This document shows positions 2,315 through 34,148 of a DNA stretch of 36,934 nucleotides, in pieces. How positions within the stretch are numbered: the first letter of the stretch is position 1; the number at the start of each line of letters is the position of its first letter. The notes beneath the pieces were generated by a model that worked only from the letters and a program-made list of their open reading frames with translations, had not been told where the DNA came from and did not search any database. Source of the DNA: Methanothrix sp. (GTDB taxonomy: Archaea > Halobacteriota > Methanosarcinia > Methanotrichales > Methanotrichaceae). Both the position numbers and the translations under genes were made by a program. The stretch is from contig JAPKXZ010000017.1 of assembly GCA_026394555.1 (NCBI GenBank), positions 1-36,934 of the forward strand. Reading direction: 5' to 3'.

Positions 2315-3217
2315 TTAGATTTTCAGCGCCCCATTTTTATAGAGGTCCTCTGCCACCTGCAAGAGGCCTTCTCCCAATACCTCTCCTCCGTAGTCGGGTA
2401 AGATTGTGATGCGCTTTTCCCGATAGCGGTCCCTTAGCTCCTGGATATAAGAGGTCTGGGATGCCTTCTTCTCCCGGCAAAAGCGGCAGTCGCAGTCTTT
2501 GATCACGTGGTTGATGATAATGGAAGAGACAAAAACTCCGTGCGACTCTACCGTCTCAATCAGGCGTCTGCTCTCCTCCACGGCCGCTTTTTCGGGGATG
2601 GTAACAATAGTGATGCTGGCCGCCTCCGGATCGAGCAGGGCGTTACGCATGGTCTCGGCTTTCTGGCGCATGATCCGAACTTCAGAGAGTATATTGTCGG
2701 CAAAACCCGGCTGCAGAAGGTCAAGCACACCCATCCATCTATTTCTCATGCCCAGCACTTTTGTGACAAATCCGGTGGTGATGGAGGGCAGTTGCAGCAA
2801 AGGCAGGACCATGGCGGTTGGCGCCGAGTCTATGACCACAAAGTCGTACTGCTTCTCCACGTAGATGTCGTTTAATTTGTCCATGAAGATCAGTTCGGAG
2901 ATGCCGGGCATGTTCCCGAAGTCCTCGGGTTTTACCTCCACCTCGAAGAGACCGAAAAGAGCTGTGAAGATGTTCTTGTACCTGCGAAAGAAGCCCCGCG
3001 CCTCTTCGGCGAGGTCGGGCTCATAGGCATAGAGATGCTCGCGGATCTTTCTTGGCTTGCTGCCCAGATCGATGTCGAAGATATCCGAGAGCGAGTGGGC
3101 CGGGTCCATGGAGAAGACCAGGGTATCCTTGCCCTGACGCGCTTTCCAGATGCCGGAAGCTGCCGAGCAGACGCTTTTGCCCACGCCTCCTTTGCCGGCC
3201 ACATAAATCAGTTTCAT
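2315..3217 (-). CDS. Get3/ArsA-family ATPase (TRC40-like)
   Basis: ATPase of the ArsA/Get3/TRC40 branch of the SIMIBI class, 300 aa. The deviant P-loop GKGGVGKS lies at residues 8-15. The family signature DPAHSLSD follows near residue 40, and the switch motif DSAPT near residue 130. A CDCRFC cluster near residue 240 resembles the Cys pair that binds zinc at the dimer interface in Get3. Get3 proteins chaperone tail-anchored membrane proteins; true ArsA proteins drive arsenite efflux and are usually tandem duplicates, whereas this one has a single ATPase unit and no arsenic genes beside it. A longer frame starts at 3265, but the ATG at 3217 has GGGGACC just upstream and puts the P-loop at the usual distance. 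The family is secure; the client proteins are unknown. Confidence 0.88.
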   Translation of the reverse strand: MKLIYVAGKGGVGKSVCSAASGIWKARQGKDTLVFSMDPAHSLSDIFDIDLGSKPRKIREHLYAYEPDLAEEARGFFRRYKNIFTALFGLFEVEVKPEDFGNMPGISELIFMDKLNDIYVEKQYDFVVIDSAPTAMVLPLLQLPSITTGFVTKVLGMRNRWMGVLDLLQPGFADNILSEVRIMRQKAETMRNALLDPEAASITIVTIPEKAAVEESRRLIETVESHGVFVSSIIINHVIKDCDCRFCREKKASQTSYIQELRDRYREKRITILPDYGGEVLGEGLLQVAEDLYKNGALKI

Positions 3218-3297
3218 AGGTCCCCAATTTTCCCGGTGGGAATTTAATGTTTTGCGCTGCAACAAAAGGTTTTTCTACTTCCAAGACATTTTAATAG

Positions 3298-3308
3298 ACT
3301 TAATTATA
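3298..3308 (+). promoter_or_regulatory. TATA-like box in the divergent intergenic region
   Basis: An AT-rich TTAATTATAA-type stretch sits between the Get3-like gene and the rightward secreted gene at 3325. It lies close to that gene, so its mRNA would have a very short leader, or the nearby TTTTAATAG at 3288-3296 is used instead. Confidence 0.35.
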
Positions 3309-3324
3309 AAAGGGGGCGAAAGGT

Positions 3325-3741
3325 TTGAGAGAGCAAATTATTCTGATCAGCATACTTATCCTGTGGGCATCTGTTGCCATAGGCGCGGTAAGCGATCAGG
3401 CAACAGGCATGGACATCCTGGGAAGCCGGGCGAACAATACCACGATCATAGCACCGGACGGCATGCCGGTCGAAGTGAATATCGTCGGCAGCACAGCCAG
3501 CAACATCCAGATCGGCTACCCGACAGAAGTTGTCAACAAGAAATCTGGAAAAGAGTGCGGTCCATGCGGCGAGGAAAAACGCTATGAAACCCCATGGGAC
3601 GACTTCAAAAGGCCGCTATGCTACCCGTGGAGTTCGTATATTCCCACCAGATACATCCGGTCGCTCATCAAAAAAGATCCGGCATACATAAGCACGACGC
3701 CAAAGATCCTCACTTTGGGGAGTGTGACAACAAAGGCGTAA
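3325..3741 (+). CDS. small secreted protein, GS-N repeat family, copy 1
   Basis: A 138-aa protein with an N-terminal hydrophobic signal (ILISILILWASVAIGAV) and probable cleavage after about residue 20. The mature part has a motif twice: DILGSRANNTTI, then about 20 residues later NIVGSTASNIQI, separated by a GMPVEV linker. A CGPCGEE cluster and a Trp/Tyr-rich segment follow. The start is TTG at 3325, preceded by a purine-rich AGGGGGCGAAAGG. The next gene (3951) encodes a relative with the same two motifs, so this is a tandem duplication. The regular spacing would suit a short beta repeat at the cell surface. I know no function for the family. Confidence 0.65.
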   Translation: MREQIILISILILWASVAIGAVSDQATGMDILGSRANNTTIIAPDGMPVEVNIVGSTASNIQIGYPTEVVNKKSGKECGPCGEEKRYETPWDDFKRPLCYPWSSYIPTRYIRSLIKKDPAYISTTPKILTLGSVTTKA

Positions 3742-3890
3742 GTTTAAAAGTATTATTTTTATCTTATTTTTATAATTTTCCCGTTACCGTCGCGGATTTC
3801 TTCCCGGCAATTGCGATTATTTTGTCAATTTTTTTCTGATAATGCCCTGAGATACTAGACTTTATCGGCCCGAAAGATTTTTCTACTTCC

Positions 3891-3902
3891 TGTATATATA
3901 AA
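3891..3902 (+). promoter_or_regulatory. archaeal TATA box upstream of secreted copy 2
   Basis: TATATATAAAA about 50 bases before the start at 3951. A start site about 25 bases downstream would leave a leader of roughly 25 nt containing the GGAGGGG ribosome site. Confidence 0.6.
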
Positions 3903-3950
3903 ACATAGGTTAAATATGTTTAGCTCGAATGAGAAATTTGCTGGAGGGGA

Positions 3951-4331
3951 ATGGTGTTGAGGAAATCAATCATGTTGGCTTTAGCGCTGATGCTATCGGC
4001 TTGCAGTGCCTATGCATTTGGCGGTCCAGGATCTGTTGTTGTGGATATAGTGGGAAGCGTAACCGATAATACAAAGATCACGTCATCCGGCATGGAAAAA
4101 GTGGAGCTGGAGATCATCGGAAGCGAGGCAAATAATACAGTTATCTCTCCACCTGAGAAGGTTGTAATATGCCCGAAACACATCTGTCCTGACACAACTT
4201 ATCCTGAAGTGAAAAACGAAAACAAGGAGAAACATTATCCCTGGGAGAATATGCATCTGGGAGTCGACGCCTGGTATGGCACTTTCTGGTATGACACAGA
4301 TATCAATATGCCCAAGTGGCCCCAATTTTAG
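3951..4331 (+). CDS. small secreted protein, GS-N repeat family, copy 2
   Basis: A 126-aa protein with a signal peptide (MLALALMLSACSAYA) and a mature region containing DIVGSVTDNTKI and EIIGSEANNTVI around a GMEKVEL linker, the same layout as the gene at 3325. LSAC could serve as a lipobox, but the AYA/FGG junction also fits ordinary signal peptidase. The C-terminal half is Trp/Tyr/Asp-rich and has CPKHICPD in place of the CGPC of copy 1. The ribosome site GGAGGGG sits directly before the ATG at 3951; the in-frame TTG six bases later would be better spaced, so the start may be off by two codons. It has its own TATA box and a downstream hairpin, so it is probably monocistronic. Function unknown. 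Confidence 0.72.
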   Translation: MVLRKSIMLALALMLSACSAYAFGGPGSVVVDIVGSVTDNTKITSSGMEKVELEIIGSEANNTVISPPEKVVICPKHICPDTTYPEVKNENKEKHYPWENMHLGVDAWYGTFWYDTDINMPKWPQF

Positions 4332-4339
4332 ATGGGAAA

Positions 4340-4380
4340 ACGGGCGTTATGGCCCGTCAGGACCAAATTAACTTTTTTAT
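4340..4380 (+). terminator. intrinsic-type terminator after secreted copy 2
   Basis: ACGGGC (4340-4345) and GCCCGT (4352-4357) form a six-pair stem with a GTTATG loop just after the stop at 4331. A T-rich stretch follows at 4372-4379. Confidence 0.5.
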
Positions 4381-4646
4381 TATCAGATTCTAAATTCCAT
4401 CCTATTAAAGGTAGAGGGAATAGAACGGCCCAGGGAGAGGGGATGGCTGAGGGTAGCAGAAAAGCCCCGGAGCCGTTTTATTGTCTTGGTGTTGTTCTAC
4501 ATAATATTAATAATAACAATGTGATCATCATAGTATTTAACACTTTCGATATTCAAATTCAGTTATCATTTGATGGCAGAGCACCCATCGATTTTTGGCA
4601 AATGAAAGTCATTAAATACACCCTGGATTTAACCTCAAACAAATCC
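4381..4646. promoter_or_regulatory. leader region of the PAPS-reductase-like gene
   Basis: The frame of the downstream gene is open back to 4332, but the stretch translates to low-complexity, Asn/Ile-rich residues unlike any domain. It is AT-rich at 4500-4560, and ATTAAATACA near 4611-4620 is a plausible TATA box about 30 bases before the ATG at 4647. A GGGAGAGGGG directly before an in-frame ATG at 4443 is an alternative start. I read the region mainly as promoter and leader. Confidence 0.4.
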
Positions 4647-6572
4647 ATGCATAATTCCAGCAAGACATTCTCTCCCGGCAAGAGCGAGCTATTCTGGTGC
4701 GAAAATTGCAGCATTCCCCTTCTCGCGGAAAAATGCTCCACCTGCAATAGCTTTGGCCGCAAAATAGAGCTCGCGCCGCCGGGCGACATCCGCCTATGTT
4801 CCCGGGCGGCAAAAGAGCTTCTCTCTTTGCTTTTCACTCAAAATTACGGCTATGCAGATTTCCTGGAAGGCAGGATAATCCTGCTCAATAAGATTGCCGG
4901 ATTAGACCGTCGCGATCAGGTGATCCTGGAAGGTCGCCACATCGCGACGCTCTGGTTTGATGTCACAGCCGGCTGCCACAAGCTGGACTTAGAGACTTTT
5001 GGCGCAGGCCTGCTTTCCGATAGAGCACAAAAAGGCCTCGTTGTATGTGACGACTCTATATTAAAAGGCCACATAAAAGGCAAGTGGCTACAAGAGACGA
5101 AGATCATAAGCGGGCTATGTGCCCGGGAGGAAGGCCAAAACGTCGTCCTGAAAATAGGAAAATTTTCCGGGGTGGGCGTGGCCAGAAAAAAGGCAGACGG
5201 CTCTATGTCCATTCGTATCAAGGACGTGACGAAGAATGATTTTACCCTTCATGAAAAGAGGCCTTCCCTGCAGGATATAATCTTTGCCAACGTGGAGAAC
5301 CTAAAATGCCTGGAGAAGGCGGCAATAAGTGAGATCAAGAACTATCTGTCCAATAACCGGCTTCCTGTAAACGTTTCCTTCAGCGGGGGAAAAGACAGCC
5401 TGGCCTGCCTTTGCCTTGCCCAAAAGACACTCTTTCGGCCTGAGGTTCTCTTCATCAACACCGGTCTGGAATTTCCAGAAACTGTGGAATATGTGCATAA
5501 GCTGTGCGATGCCCAAAAGCTGCGGCTGCAAGAGATCAAGGGAGAGAGCGGCTTTTTTGAGCAGGTGAAGAATTTTGGCCCCCCGGCCAAAGATTTTCGC
5601 TGGTGCTGCAAGACGAACAAGCTGGGACCAATGACTTCCTTTCTTAAAGAGCACTACCCCAAAGGCTGCGTGACAATTGAAGGGCGGCGCATCTACGAAT
5701 CCTTCAACCGTTCTACCATCAAGGCCGTGGAGAGGAATCCCTATGTTCCCAGCCAAACCACGCTGGCGCCCATTAGAAATTGGCGGGCGCTGGAGGTCAT
5801 GCTCTACATCTACTGGAATAAGATAGAACCCAATCCGCTCTATGAGGAGGACTTTGAGCGCATCGGCTGCTGGCTGTGCCCCGCCGCGCTGCAATCTGAG
5901 TTTGCCAATCTGAAAGTAACCCATCCCCAGCTCTATGACCGGTGGACTGACTCTCTAAAGGAATGGGCGGACGGGAATAAGCTGGATAAGAGATACATCG
6001 ATTGGGGTTTTTGGCGCTGGAAGAGGCATCCTCCCAAGATGCTCGAGATAGCAAAAGAGCACAATATAAACCTGCAAGTAGGTGCTGCCGGGAAAGAAAA
6101 AATCACTTTGCAGGCACTGCGAGGCCGGTCGCCTTGCGGCCTGGAGTACTCCATCGAAGCGACACTATGCGCCCCCCAGAATCATCCTTTTTCCTCTGTT
6201 GCCGCGGCCCTTAATATTTTGGGTCAGGTGAAATATGAGGAAGATCTGGGGGCAGCGTTGCTTAAGACCGAAAAAGGAAGGGTCAGTGTCTTTGCCAACG
6301 GACACATCATGATCATTGCCGGCAAAGAGCAGGCGGAGGAGCTGCTGCGAGAGGTCTGCGAAACGGTCCTGCGCACCCAGATGTGCACGAGATGCAAGAT
6401 CTGCGAGAAGAACTGCCCTCGAGGGGCAATTATCGTGGCAGAGAGCATAACAATTGATGAGACAAAGTGCAATCATTGCCAAAAGTGTGGCAACGGCTGC
6501 ATTGCCGCCGACCAGGCCGCGAAGATCTATGCCGGGCTTGCCGGAGCAGAGCCGATCTCCCGGATTTCTTGA
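4647..6572 (+). CDS. PAPS-reductase-family protein with Zn ribbon and ferredoxin domains
   Basis: About 641 aa from the ATG at 4647. An N-terminal zinc ribbon has C18-x2-C21 and C30-x2-C33. Residues of about 90-190 look PUA-like (GRHIATLWFDV, GVGVARKKADGSM). An adenine-nucleotide alpha-hydrolase (PAPS reductase) domain follows, with the PP-loop SGGKDS at 246-251, a WCCKTNKLGPM segment, and GCWLCPAALQ. The C-terminus has a two-cluster ferredoxin with CTRCKICEKNCP from residue 580 and CNHCQKCGNGC. Related multi-domain proteins occur in methanogens and are annotated as PAPS reductase, but the RNA-binding-like domain and iron-sulfur clusters suggest sulfur transfer or nucleotide-activated modification rather than sulfate assimilation. 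The substrate is unknown. No partner gene is adjacent. Domains are well supported; the exact start is not. Confidence 0.8.
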   Translation: MHNSSKTFSPGKSELFWCENCSIPLLAEKCSTCNSFGRKIELAPPGDIRLCSRAAKELLSLLFTQNYGYADFLEGRIILLNKIAGLDRRDQVILEGRHIATLWFDVTAGCHKLDLETFGAGLLSDRAQKGLVVCDDSILKGHIKGKWLQETKIISGLCAREEGQNVVLKIGKFSGVGVARKKADGSMSIRIKDVTKNDFTLHEKRPSLQDIIFANVENLKCLEKAAISEIKNYLSNNRLPVNVSFSGGKDSLACLCLAQKTLFRPEVLFINTGLEFPETVEYVHKLCDAQKLRLQEIKGESGFFEQVKNFGPPAKDFRWCCKTNKLGPMTSFLKEHYPKGCVTIEGRRIYESFNRSTIKAVERNPYVPSQTTLAPIRNWRALEVMLYIYWNKIEPNPLYEEDFERIGCWLCPAALQSEFANLKVTHPQLYDRWTDSLKEWADGNKLDKRYIDWGFWRWKRHPPKMLEIAKEHNINLQVGAAGKEKITLQALRGRSPCGLEYSIEATLCAPQNHPFSSVAAALNILGQVKYEEDLGAALLKTEKGRVSVFANGHIMIIAGKEQAEELLREVCETVLRTQMCTRCKICEKNCPRGAIIVAESITIDETKCNHCQKCGNGCIAADQAAKIYAGLAGAEPISRIS

Positions 6573-30338: not shown

Positions 30339-31166
30339 CTAATCGCTGCCGGCTTCAGGCACCAGCTTGATCTCGAAGAGCTTAGGCCACAACTTTCCCG
30401 TCACAAACAGCCTATCTTCTAACGCATCGTAGGCAATGCCGTTTAGCACATCCACAATACTTCCCTGAATATCGCGTTCTTGCAAGATTCCTTGCATATT
30501 TATTTTGCCTTTCACCTCGCCGCTCTCGGGAGATATTATCACTATCCAGTTTGTAGGCCAGACATTGGCATAGATCTGCCCTTTGATATACTCCAGCTCA
30601 TTTAGGCCCTTAAGCGGCGTGCCGTTGGCTGTGACCAATATCCGCCCCTTTTCCGCAAAGCTCTCAGGATCAAGAATATGCAGGATGTCTGTGCCATCGC
30701 TCATGATCAGGCTCTTGTTGTCGGAGGTTATGCCCCAGCCCTCTGTCGGGTAGCTGAAGTTGCCGATCTCTGTCAAATTCTCTTTGCCATAGACCAGGCC
30801 CCGGCCCGACTGCCAGGTGAGCTGAATGATCCGGTCTTTCCAGAGGGCTACGCCTTCCCCAAATAAGGTGCTCAAGAGGTGCGTCTGATCTAGAACGCGG
30901 CCCGTTTCCAGATCGACGCGGCGCAGCGTTGATCGCCCGTACAGCCCCGTTCCCTCGTAAAGCACTCCTTCGTTATATACCAGGCCTTGAGTGAATGCTA
31001 GGCTGCTGTGAGGATAGGTATTGACGATTTGGTAGCCAAGGACCGGTATAGAGTCCGTCTCGACAAAATGAGAGCTGCCCTGCGCGGCAGAGAGCAAAGC
31101 TGCTAAGAGCAGAACAGCCGGGAAGGCCAGGAGAACGAATCGTGATGAGCAGGATCTTTTTATCAT
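30339..31166 (-). CDS. secreted glutaminyl-peptide cyclotransferase, plant/bacterial type
   Basis: A 275-aa exported enzyme of the five-bladed beta-propeller glutaminyl cyclase family, which converts N-terminal Gln to pyroglutamate. The signal peptide is visible (FVLLAFPAVLLLAALLSA). Family motifs follow in order: TYPHSSLAFTQGLVY, LYEGTGLYGRSTLRRVDL, FGEGVALWKD, YPTEGWGITSD with MSDGTDIL, LNELEYIKGQIYANVWPTN, and LNGIAYDALEDRLFVTGK. The length matches the soluble enzyme. N-terminal cyclisation would protect secreted proteins from aminopeptidases. The ATG at 31166 gives a proper signal sequence. Upstream lies a dead AlbA_2-like fragment on the other strand. Confidence 0.87.
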   Translation of the reverse strand: MIKRSCSSRFVLLAFPAVLLLAALLSAAQGSSHFVETDSIPVLGYQIVNTYPHSSLAFTQGLVYNEGVLYEGTGLYGRSTLRRVDLETGRVLDQTHLLSTLFGEGVALWKDRIIQLTWQSGRGLVYGKENLTEIGNFSYPTEGWGITSDNKSLIMSDGTDILHILDPESFAEKGRILVTANGTPLKGLNELEYIKGQIYANVWPTNWIVIISPESGEVKGKINMQGILQERDIQGSIVDVLNGIAYDALEDRLFVTGKLWPKLFEIKLVPEAGSD

Positions 31167-31378: not shown

Positions 31379-32785
31379 TCAACGCACCCTATTTCTGATC
31401 ATCAAGGAAATGACCAGGGCCATCACAGAGGCCACAATTCCCAGCATAGCAGCGTGGTGAAAGCCCAAGGCGATTATCTGGGAAGATGCGTGATGTACAG
31501 AGGCATCGCCCTGGGTCGTAGCGCTGAAAACAGTCTCGAATAGGGCAATCCCTAATATCACTCCCATGTCCCTGAAGGTCATCATAATGCTTGAAGCCAG
31601 TCCTTGCTCACGGGGACACTGGCCCAGTACTATGCTGAGTGTGGGTGGGGCAAACATACCGTAGCCTATTCCCATGAGTACAAGCGCAAAGGGAAGGACG
31701 ATCTTCTGGGAACCGCTTGCGTCCACGTCCAGGAAGAAGAATAGAAGGAAGGCGAGGAGGGTGCTGGCGGAGGCAGCCAGGCAGGCAAGTCCTGGACCTT
31801 TGCGGTCATTTATGGCTCCTCCGATTGGCGCCGATACTGCTGCAGCAATTGATGCGATCATCAAGAATAAGCTAGCGACAACGGTCGGGAATCCCAGACC
31901 CAGCTCCATATAAAAAGGCAGAACAAATAGGGCTCCCGCAAAGGCCAGCAGCATTAGCAGAGCCCCTAGGTTAGGCAGTACGAAGTTTAGATTTTTGAAA
32001 AGATTCAGGTCAACTAAAGGTTTTGGATATCGCCTCTCTCTTATGAGAAATCCAATGGCGCAAAGAACGGCGAGAGAAAAAGATCCCACTATCGGGTTAG
32101 ATTCCCAACCAATCTGTGTCCCTTGGTTCAGACCGTAGATAACCAGGGCCAGGCAAGCGAAGATCAGGCTTGCCCCGAGAAAGTCGAAGCTACCTTTGAT
32201 GCGGGGTAGATCCTTGGGTAATACCTTATAGCCGATGAGTGCGGCCACAATACCTATTGGAGCGTTCACCAAAAATATCCACCGCCATCCAAGGTAAACT
32301 GTGAGAAAACCGCCAATGACGGGACCTAGCGCCAGGCCAATTGAGGCGGAGGTTATTACGTATCCTAGAGCTCTGCCTCTAATTGTCGTGGGAAGAAATG
32401 CTGAAATCATAGCCGGACCTACGGCTACTATTATTCCCCCACCTATTCCCTGAAGGACGCGAAAGAAGATTATCTCAGCAATCCCAGGGGCCAGAGCACA
32501 GAGAAATGAGCCGGTAGCGAAGATCAAGATCCCCCACAGGAAGATCTTTCGAAAACCCAGCAGGTCTCCCAGCCTGCCGAAGGCCAGAAGAAGGCTGGTT
32601 ACAGTAAGAAAATAGGAAAGGATTATCCAGGATACCTCTCCCGTACCTACATCGAAGTACCGGGAGATGGTAGGCAAGGAGATATTGACTATTGTTGTGT
32701 CCAGGGTGGCCATAAAGATTGATAAACAGACGACTAAAAGGATGAGCGGAAAGGATTTCTCCGGGGTGCGGGTATCGATGATCAT
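31379..32785 (-). CDS. MFS exporter, DHA2 (EmrB/QacA) 14-helix family
   Basis: A 468-aa inner-membrane drug/H+ antiporter-type protein. Hallmarks are the DHA2 start FMATLDTTIVNISLPTI, motif A as GRLGDLLGFRKIF, FFRVLQGIGGGIIVAVGPA, and motif C as LGPVIGGFLTVYLGWRWIF. About 14 hydrophobic helices are visible. The frame extends to 32878, but that part overlaps the preceding gene; the ATG at 32785 lies 10 bases after the stop of the formyltransferase, so the two form an operon. The exporter may carry the product of that enzyme. The substrate is unknown. Confidence 0.9.
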   Translation of the reverse strand: MIIDTRTPEKSFPLILLVVCLSIFMATLDTTIVNISLPTISRYFDVGTGEVSWIILSYFLTVTSLLLAFGRLGDLLGFRKIFLWGILIFATGSFLCALAPGIAEIIFFRVLQGIGGGIIVAVGPAMISAFLPTTIRGRALGYVITSASIGLALGPVIGGFLTVYLGWRWIFLVNAPIGIVAALIGYKVLPKDLPRIKGSFDFLGASLIFACLALVIYGLNQGTQIGWESNPIVGSFSLAVLCAIGFLIRERRYPKPLVDLNLFKNLNFVLPNLGALLMLLAFAGALFVLPFYMELGLGFPTVVASLFLMIASIAAAVSAPIGGAINDRKGPGLACLAASASTLLAFLLFFFLDVDASGSQKIVLPFALVLMGIGYGMFAPPTLSIVLGQCPREQGLASSIMMTFRDMGVILGIALFETVFSATTQGDASVHHASSQIIALGFHHAAMLGIVASVMALVISLMIRNRVR

Positions 32786-32795
32786 GGCACTGTTT

Positions 32796-33758
32796 TCAGG
32801 ACGGCATGCGATTTGGATCAATGACAAATTCAACCTCTCCGTCAAGAAGAGGCAGCTCTGCCTGGGGGATGTCCTCATCTATTGGTTGCATCAGCTTATC
32901 TTTGTATTCCTGAGGGAACAGATCTTCGAAGTTCAATCCTTCTAAGCAGCCCGATTCTCCTCGATCCCACTTGCACACTAATTCCGATACCATACAGGCT
33001 GCCATGCGATCAATGGGAACCAGCATCTTGTCATTGATGACTAAAACATCGTTTGTAATTCCTCCATTCTTGAGCCGGACGTTTATGGGCGGAGACTGTC
33101 CGACTACAGGTCCCGCGTCCACTTCCTTGGTGACCCTGTGAACTGTGACCTTGGAGCACTCGGCCTGCCTGGCAATCAGATCTTCATAGGGCTTTGGACC
33201 TGCCCCGTGATGAGAGACCAGATCGGCAGGATGGAAGTTGTATATGCCGAATGCCGGATAGTCGGTTATAGGCTGGTCCAAGATCTGCCCGAAGACGCAT
33301 ACTAAAATAGCTTGAGGATTGCATCCGGCCAGCAGCTTCCGGAAGGATTCTGTCTTCACATCTCCGGTGAAACATGGAATGCCAAAAGCCAATGCCGATT
33401 CGATCATAACCCTCTCAAGCTGCACCTTTTTCTTCATGTCGAAGAGCCGCCAGATCCTCTTCTCTGCAGATATCCTGGCCTTGAGATTAGCGGGATCGTC
33501 TGTGACCAATCCCACGATGTTGATCTTCCCCGGATTTCTCCTCTCCAGCTCTTTTAGCGTTTCTAGAAGGAGATAACCGAGGAGGAAGCTGGCAAAAACC
33601 AGGATCCTAAAACCCTCCTTTGCCTTCCCCGTACTTTCGTCTGGGGCCGGCAATATCAATTCTCCCCAGCTTGAATCTTTGAAGGATATGATCTTCCTGC
33701 CCGGATTATCCAAAAAAAGCTCCTGATTGATCAGCTTCTCATCATCCAGATTTGCCAT
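32796..33758 (-). CDS. formyltransferase-family enzyme, substrate unknown
   Basis: A 320-aa protein with a Rossmann-like formyltransferase domain (Fmt/GART/ArnA class). After an extra N-terminal segment of about 50 residues, the domain begins FRILVFASFLLGYLLLETL. The active site appears as NFHPADLVSHHGAGP (Asn and His) and KEVDAGPVVGQSPP (Asp), the N-H-D triad of N10-formyl-tetrahydrofolate-dependent enzymes. It is too divergent for a standard methionyl-tRNA formyltransferase, which archaea lack anyway, and resembles enzymes that formylate amino sugars or small amines. The carrier in a methanogen might be a tetrahydromethanopterin or folate derivative. It is directly followed by the MFS exporter at 10 bases. 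Confidence 0.8.
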   Translation of the reverse strand: MANLDDEKLINQELFLDNPGRKIISFKDSSWGELILPAPDESTGKAKEGFRILVFASFLLGYLLLETLKELERRNPGKINIVGLVTDDPANLKARISAEKRIWRLFDMKKKVQLERVMIESALAFGIPCFTGDVKTESFRKLLAGCNPQAILVCVFGQILDQPITDYPAFGIYNFHPADLVSHHGAGPKPYEDLIARQAECSKVTVHRVTKEVDAGPVVGQSPPINVRLKNGGITNDVLVINDKMLVPIDRMAACMVSELVCKWDRGESGCLEGLNFEDLFPQEYKDKLMQPIDEDIPQAELPLLDGEVEFVIDPNRMPS

Positions 33759-33849
33759 GTATTATCGTTTACGTTTCCATCATATATCTATTTGCGCAAA
33801 GATGCGAAGTATCTGGACCATCCATATGATTATTCTGCGTATTATATAA

Positions 33850-34148
33850 TTAAGTGGGGATCGGGTTCAATGTGGCATTTATTGATGTATTAAGTTGCGT
33901 CACATCATGGCCACGAAGGAAAGATACCTCATCGTCCTTAACCTTCATAGCCTCTTTCAGCTTTTCCGACCAATCCTAGCCGTGGCCAGCTCCTCCCTCG
34001 AACTCGAAGCCAGCCATGGCCCGATTGGCATGCTCACTCTCGGCCTGTAGCTTATCTGCCTTCGCCTCGTGCTTACGGTGGCCTTCGTCCCTGGCCTTCT
34101 CCTATTCTTCCCAGGTTATGGAAGATGATTGGGAAGCGTTCAGACTTA
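33850..34148 (-). pseudogene. coiled-coil protein pseudogene with two in-frame stops
   Basis: One minus-strand frame reads SLNASQSSSITWEE, TAG, EKARDEGHRKHEAKADKLQA and on to AMAGFEFEGGAGHG, TAG, DWSEKLKEAMKVKDDEVSFL and a final stop after NPIPT. The charged heptad-like pattern is typical of a coiled coil, and the family resembles regulators ending in an EVxFLRxH segment. Two stops inside an otherwise uniform frame mark it as dead. The rest of the gap at 33759-33849 is AT-rich promoter-like DNA for the formyltransferase. Confidence 0.6.

Follow-up and report, generated by a model that had tools for sequence, protein, structure and literature searches.

The question raised by this Methanothrix locus is whether a gene for a divergent formyltransferase, which we call FT, and the exporter gene that follows it together make and export a formylated product, or are neighbours by chance of local history. 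The window, the whole stretch of DNA analysed, is 36,934 nucleotides long. The features of the gene pair are as follows.

31379-32785, minus strand: DHA2/EmrB-type MFS exporter, 468 aa, antiporter motif GLALGPVIGG (profile, motif).
32786-32795, minus strand: 10-bp spacer from the FT stop to the exporter ATG, no clear Shine-Dalgarno sequence by eye (sequence).
32796-33758, minus strand: FT, divergent PF00551 formyltransferase, 320 aa, ATG start (ORF, profile, alignment, model).
33231-33239, minus strand: catalytic codons of N-F-H, N174 at 33237-33239 and H176 at 33231-33233 (sequence, alignments).
33117-33119, minus strand: catalytic codon D214, Glu in the G004 orthologue (alignment).

The two genes

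FT - a formyltransferase with an altered loop. A sequence-only reading of the window had described 32796-33758 as a divergent formyltransferase with an intact N-H-D site, and this is confirmed: FT scores 35.9 bits against the Pfam cut-off of 26.1 for PF00551, with no second Pfam domain at E 0.1, and in an alignment N174, H176 and D214 fall on the triad positions of the PurN, PurU, Fmt and ArnA rows. All three FT orthologues pass the gathering cut-off, the other two with 40.7 and 29.9 bits. Asn is the third catalytic residue of the formyltransferase triad. In E. coli PurN, His108 and Asp144 are reported to take part in catalysis (PMC3261824). Asn and His are retained in all three FTs and Asp in two; the triad is complete in the window FT and in L003, and in the G004 orthologue Glu replaces Asp. 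In a mixed alignment with formyltransferases from viral contigs, H176 and D214 are invariant in 13/13 rows and N174 is missing from two of the viral rows.

The loop after the catalytic His is ADLVSHHG in FT as against SLLPxxRG in most relatives, and SLLP is gone from all three FTs. The segment WGELILPAPDE is specific to FT and invariant in all three, and a TDDPAN..RIS..RIWR stretch is another FT-specific feature. With the loop altered and D214 replaced in G004, the formyl donor or the reaction may differ from that of the relatives. The same two changes would fit a degraded or non-catalytic relative retained for binding, but we consider this very unlikely given the conservation of the triad just described and a dN/dS of about 0.13 between the window FT and the 80%-identical G003 orthologue. 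Because dN is 0.117 and dS 0.87 in that comparison, we judge that FT is a real gene under purifying selection.

The exporter. The EmrB/QacA-type exporter that had been placed 10 bp after FT is likewise well founded, with a likely start at ATG 32785 and a score of 255.7 bits against the TIGR00711 cut-off of 230.2 (the stretch scanned, 31379-32788, has one extra leading residue). A longer ORF would begin at 32878, within FT; the exporter orthologues L024 and L025 start at a codon aligned with 32785. The MFS motifs are intact, and the protein falls within the subfamily cut-off for DHA2/EmrB efflux permeases (TIGR00711), with no feature found that distinguishes it from them. Proteins of the DHA2 family typically have 14 transmembrane segments, which could not be counted reliably in this exporter. 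FT and the exporter are on the same strand and, judging from the sequence, are probably co-transcribed in the window.

The exporter is followed closely, on its own strand, by a gene of the glutamine cyclotransferase family (30339-31166; PF05096, 320.1 bits). Elsewhere in the window, 175-1482 encodes a DUF4062 and NB-ARC/NACHT-like protein, possibly a STAND-type NTPase, with no PADLOC match.

Relationship of FT to known formyltransferases

A match to a known purine or tRNA formyltransferase had been named as a result that would speak against the sequence-only reading, and FT shows no such match: it misses the cut-offs of TIGR00639, TIGR00655 and TIGR00460 and is separate in the tree. PurN has the superfamily PF00551 in common with FT, which scores 23.5 bits against the TIGR00639 cut-off of 150.1; the window genome has a separate PurN elsewhere (L002, 206.7 bits), and we rejected a PurN identity.

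PurU carries an ACT domain. PF00551 is the only Pfam domain of FT, which reaches 16.1 bits against the TIGR00655 cut-off of 285.95 and is outside PurU in the tree, and PurU was also rejected. The same observations bear on the idea that FT hydrolyses formyl-folate, releasing formate or feeding another step, in the manner of PurU or of the formyltetrahydrofolate dehydrogenase (FDH) hydrolase domain. The predicted structure of FT suggests a fold in common with the FDH domain (Z 17.7), and no acceptor pathway was recognised beside FT in its other two loci; but set against the low PurU score, the single domain and the position in the tree, this makes a hydrolase quite unlikely.

In the case of methionyl-tRNA formyltransferase the resemblance is greater. 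Of the NCBIfam models fmt (TIGR00460) gives FT its best score, 44.7 bits (orthologues 53.5 and 44.0), and Fmt has the same N-terminal formyltransferase fold, an aligned triad and a tied best structural Z. However, the fmt cut-off is 201.5 bits, and Fmt has other loops and a C-terminal domain, PF02911, which is present in the archaeal Fmt L021 and absent from all three FTs. The tree places FT outside the Fmt rows, and it has no deformylase partner in the genomes searched, as none of G000 (the window genome, 96% complete), G003, G004 and G028 gave a peptide deformylase match at E 1e-5. It is thus extremely improbable that FT is a methionyl-tRNA formyltransferase.

Sugar N-formyltransferases of the ArnA/WbkC type share the fold and triad with FT. 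The ArnA model gives FT 26.6 bits, with a cut-off of 777 that applies to the two-domain protein. No nucleotide-sugar gene was recognised beside FT in the window; in the other loci there is AglB two genes upstream (Ch14, taken to be the G003 genome) and a GH31 glucosidase gene upstream (G004), which are different genes.

In a 20-row tree, in which one PurN row was shortened by the start chosen for it, the three FTs share one branch with support 100/100 and a stem of 2.08 changes per column. A split with support 99/97 divides this branch, together with the Fmt and sugar-enzyme rows, from PurN and PurU; the split of FT from the Fmt plus sugar rows has support 82/84, under the starred level.

An AlphaFold model of FT was made from a 13-row alignment (window, L003, L004 and 10 viral-contig formyltransferases) rich in Fmt-like proteins. 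Its mean pLDDT is 62.8; within residues 51-290 most ten-residue blocks are at 65-86 and some at 37-58, and both ends are poor. An earlier model from a two-row alignment, with pLDDT 35.5, was discarded. The viral rows came from two alignment scans of viral contigs, which gave 3 and 13 loci, 11 of the 16 being taken as ORFs: L055, L056, L058, L064 and L066 were omitted as copies or truncated, and L062 was dropped as a near copy of L061. Three scans of viral contigs with single proteins found no formyltransferases. The structural Z values of the predicted model, with differences below 1 taken as ties, are 18.1 with Fmt, 18.0 with ArnA, 17.7 with the FDH hydrolase domain, 15.9 with PurN and 15.2 with WbkC. 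Structural comparison with sugar N-formyltransferases had been proposed as a check, and the match to ArnA was indeed obtained, but Fmt and the FDH hydrolase domain tie with it and the three are not separated. As the values tie and the alignment leaned towards Fmt, structure does not settle the subfamily.

By profile and tree, then, we take it that FT forms a branch of its own within the PF00551 superfamily, on the side of Fmt and ArnA and without a name in the libraries searched, and its novelty as an enzyme is modest. Among PHROGs it has only one weak PurN-like match (30.7 bits), and PADLOC has no match for FT or the exporter.

Distribution and probable transfer of FT

FT is present in three of 50 genomes of the order, those of the window, G003 and G004. 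At E 1e-6, 46 of the 50 have PF00551, 43 of them once and these three twice, the second match being FT. An FT profile gave no further match judged to be a true FT in the class (237 genomes) or in the phylum (392 sampled genomes); the other matches were put down to other subfamilies, G103 (class) and G322 (phylum) being other formyltransferases and G372 and G411 (phylum) Fmt. Of the 46 stretches from a scan of genome contigs, two were relatives, one from Ch14 and the other a SAR86 Fmt. There were no FT relatives on plasmids (tblastn, 1e-5) or among viral contigs (FT alignment), and the matches listed at looser limits were partial, with 23-36% identity (6/6 phage records; the 20 listed of 52 plasmid records). 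For bacteria these statements cover short exact patterns, plasmids and phages.

Between the window genome and G003, dS is 0.87 for FT as against 2.31 for HMG-CoA synthase (HMGS) and 2.26 for PurN; the two latter genes give 0.86 and 0.87 against the congener G036. As dS of FT between genera is far below these two yardsticks, on which the argument rests, FT has probably been transferred horizontally between genera of methane-making archaea. With G004 the window FT has 54% identity, where the yardsticks have 57 and 66-67%, and there is no excess similarity.

Is the pair conserved?

The sequence-only reading proposed that FT perhaps makes a formylated small molecule which leaves the cell through the adjacent DHA2 pump; on that view the pair might be expected elsewhere. 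Besides the shared strand and the 10-bp gap, there is a loose precedent for such coupling in a Limosilactobacillus gastricus plasmid. However, genomic co-occurrence, the check put forward with that proposal, went against it. The exporter is absent from the surroundings of both other FT loci: with a limit of E 1, L003, L026 and L027 (17-20 kb) gave no match to it. The Ch14 FT is preceded by AglB and creatininase genes and stands opposite a mechanosensitive-channel-type gene, and that of G004 has a GH31 gene on one side and a radical-SAM gene on the other. None of the three exporter orthologues of at least 76% identity (94% in G028, 78% in G034 and 76% in G036) has FT beside it, and FT was found neither at E 1e-5 in these genomes nor in their exporter stretches (G034 is 84% and G036 81% complete). 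Nine of the 50 genomes of the order have the exporter at E 1e-80: the window genome, these three and five at 37-50% identity. G003 has no match at that level, and the exporter-like gene of G004 has only 45% identity and is on another contig.

Among the genomes searched the pair is thus seen in one alone. Because the relatives examined carry FT and exporter apart, the pairing is probably a matter of local lineage history and not a conserved export system; export of an FT product by this pump is unlikely, and a formyltransferase-exporter system is not upheld as a finding. The parts of the literature retrieved for a formyltransferase with an MFS exporter, in archaea, Methanothrix, microcin C or gene clusters, showed nothing that we judged to be the same pair.

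The Limosilactobacillus plasmid (L034) has genes for a ThiF-type adenylyltransferase, a formyltransferase and an MFS transporter consecutively at 3040-6120, presumably resembling a microcin C-like cluster. We considered this operon as a model for FT and rejected it, as the plasmid formyltransferase is outside the FT group in the tree.

The locus in the sister genome G028

G028 lacks most of FT, and two further features are needed here.

32797-33970, no strand: 1,174-bp block with FT minus its final bases, missing in G028, CA at both ends (comparison with G028).
33862-34101, minus strand: coiled-coil gene remnant with a single in-frame TAG, spanning the 33970 edge of the block (sequence, relative).

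The G028 DNA is about 91-97% identical on either side of the missing block, and a further 94 bp, window positions 34022-34115, are missing. The sole other match to the remnant in 50 genomes is in G017 (38% identity, E 3.3e-5). As the remnant crosses the block edge at 33970, we infer that G028 lost the block rather than that the window gained it, with the weak coiled-coil match as the basis. The G017 relative (L047) is an open frame with a sub-cut-off VapB-type N-terminus.

The exporter orthologue of G028 (L023 1885-3161) has its frame broken by a 181-bp gap. The pair may therefore predate the window genome, with both halves having decayed together, which if the pair is ancestral would speak for coupling. 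However the gene next to the exporter (L023 3194-3801) is likewise frameshifted, so decay there may be general, or errors in the assembly of G028 may be responsible, and the joint decay is weak evidence for a link between FT and exporter.

Proposed function of FT

The reading we prefer, with somewhat more confidence than doubt, is that FT is a standalone, accessory and probably laterally exchanged small-molecule formyltransferase of Methanotrichaceae, with the exporter adjacent by local history. From the fold and catalytic triad of formyltransferases, FT would most likely bind 10-formyltetrahydrofolate and move the formyl group to a small molecule, presumably at an amine, acting as a single-domain enzyme independent of the exporter. 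The donor should be available, as FolD (PF02882) is present in all four genomes tested and tetrahydrofolate is expected in archaea with PurN, Methanosarcinales included (PMC3261824). A protein acceptor is also possible, as O-formylated peptides have been reported in Methanosarcina mazei (PMC4350412).

If FT is such a small-molecule formyltransferase, there would be a formylated metabolite that is new to us in acetate-using methanogens, and the rare, probably transferred distribution would mark FT as a lifestyle gene and not a housekeeping one. It is a good deal more speculative, and we think highly improbable, that FT is a new mobile methanogen branch whose altered loop fits formyl-tetrahydromethanopterin or -sarcinapterin, in place of formyl-folate, as donor for a secreted formylated metabolite. 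N10-formyl-tetrahydromethanopterin is, in the source consulted, not believed to serve as formyl donor (PMC3261824). Use of a methanogen C1 carrier by FT would link the cofactors of methanogenesis to formylation.

fmt and def genes in archaea

The proposal of another substrate for FT had started from the statement that archaea do not use formyl-Met initiation. That is supported in part, by the lack of a deformylase match here and by a 2026 review, according to which FMT is absent from archaea and canonical PDF generally absent too (PMC13234167), but it meets an exception at the level of genes in one genus of the same phylum, which has a real fmt. Type 3 PDFs have been placed in archaea (PMC12690207), and none of the literature titles searched concerned fmt in such an archaeal genus. 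Another order of the phylum was sampled with 80 genomes; fmt is above the TIGR00460 cut-off in 10, and these are all 10 of the sampled genomes of genus g96, with none among the 70 others of that order. In the two genomes read, def is directly upstream of fmt (G372, L021 891-2310; G411, L022 1066-2485). Genus g96 may thus use formyl-Met initiation, and at the level of genes, as far as these sequences go, the absence of formyl-Met machinery from archaea is not universal.
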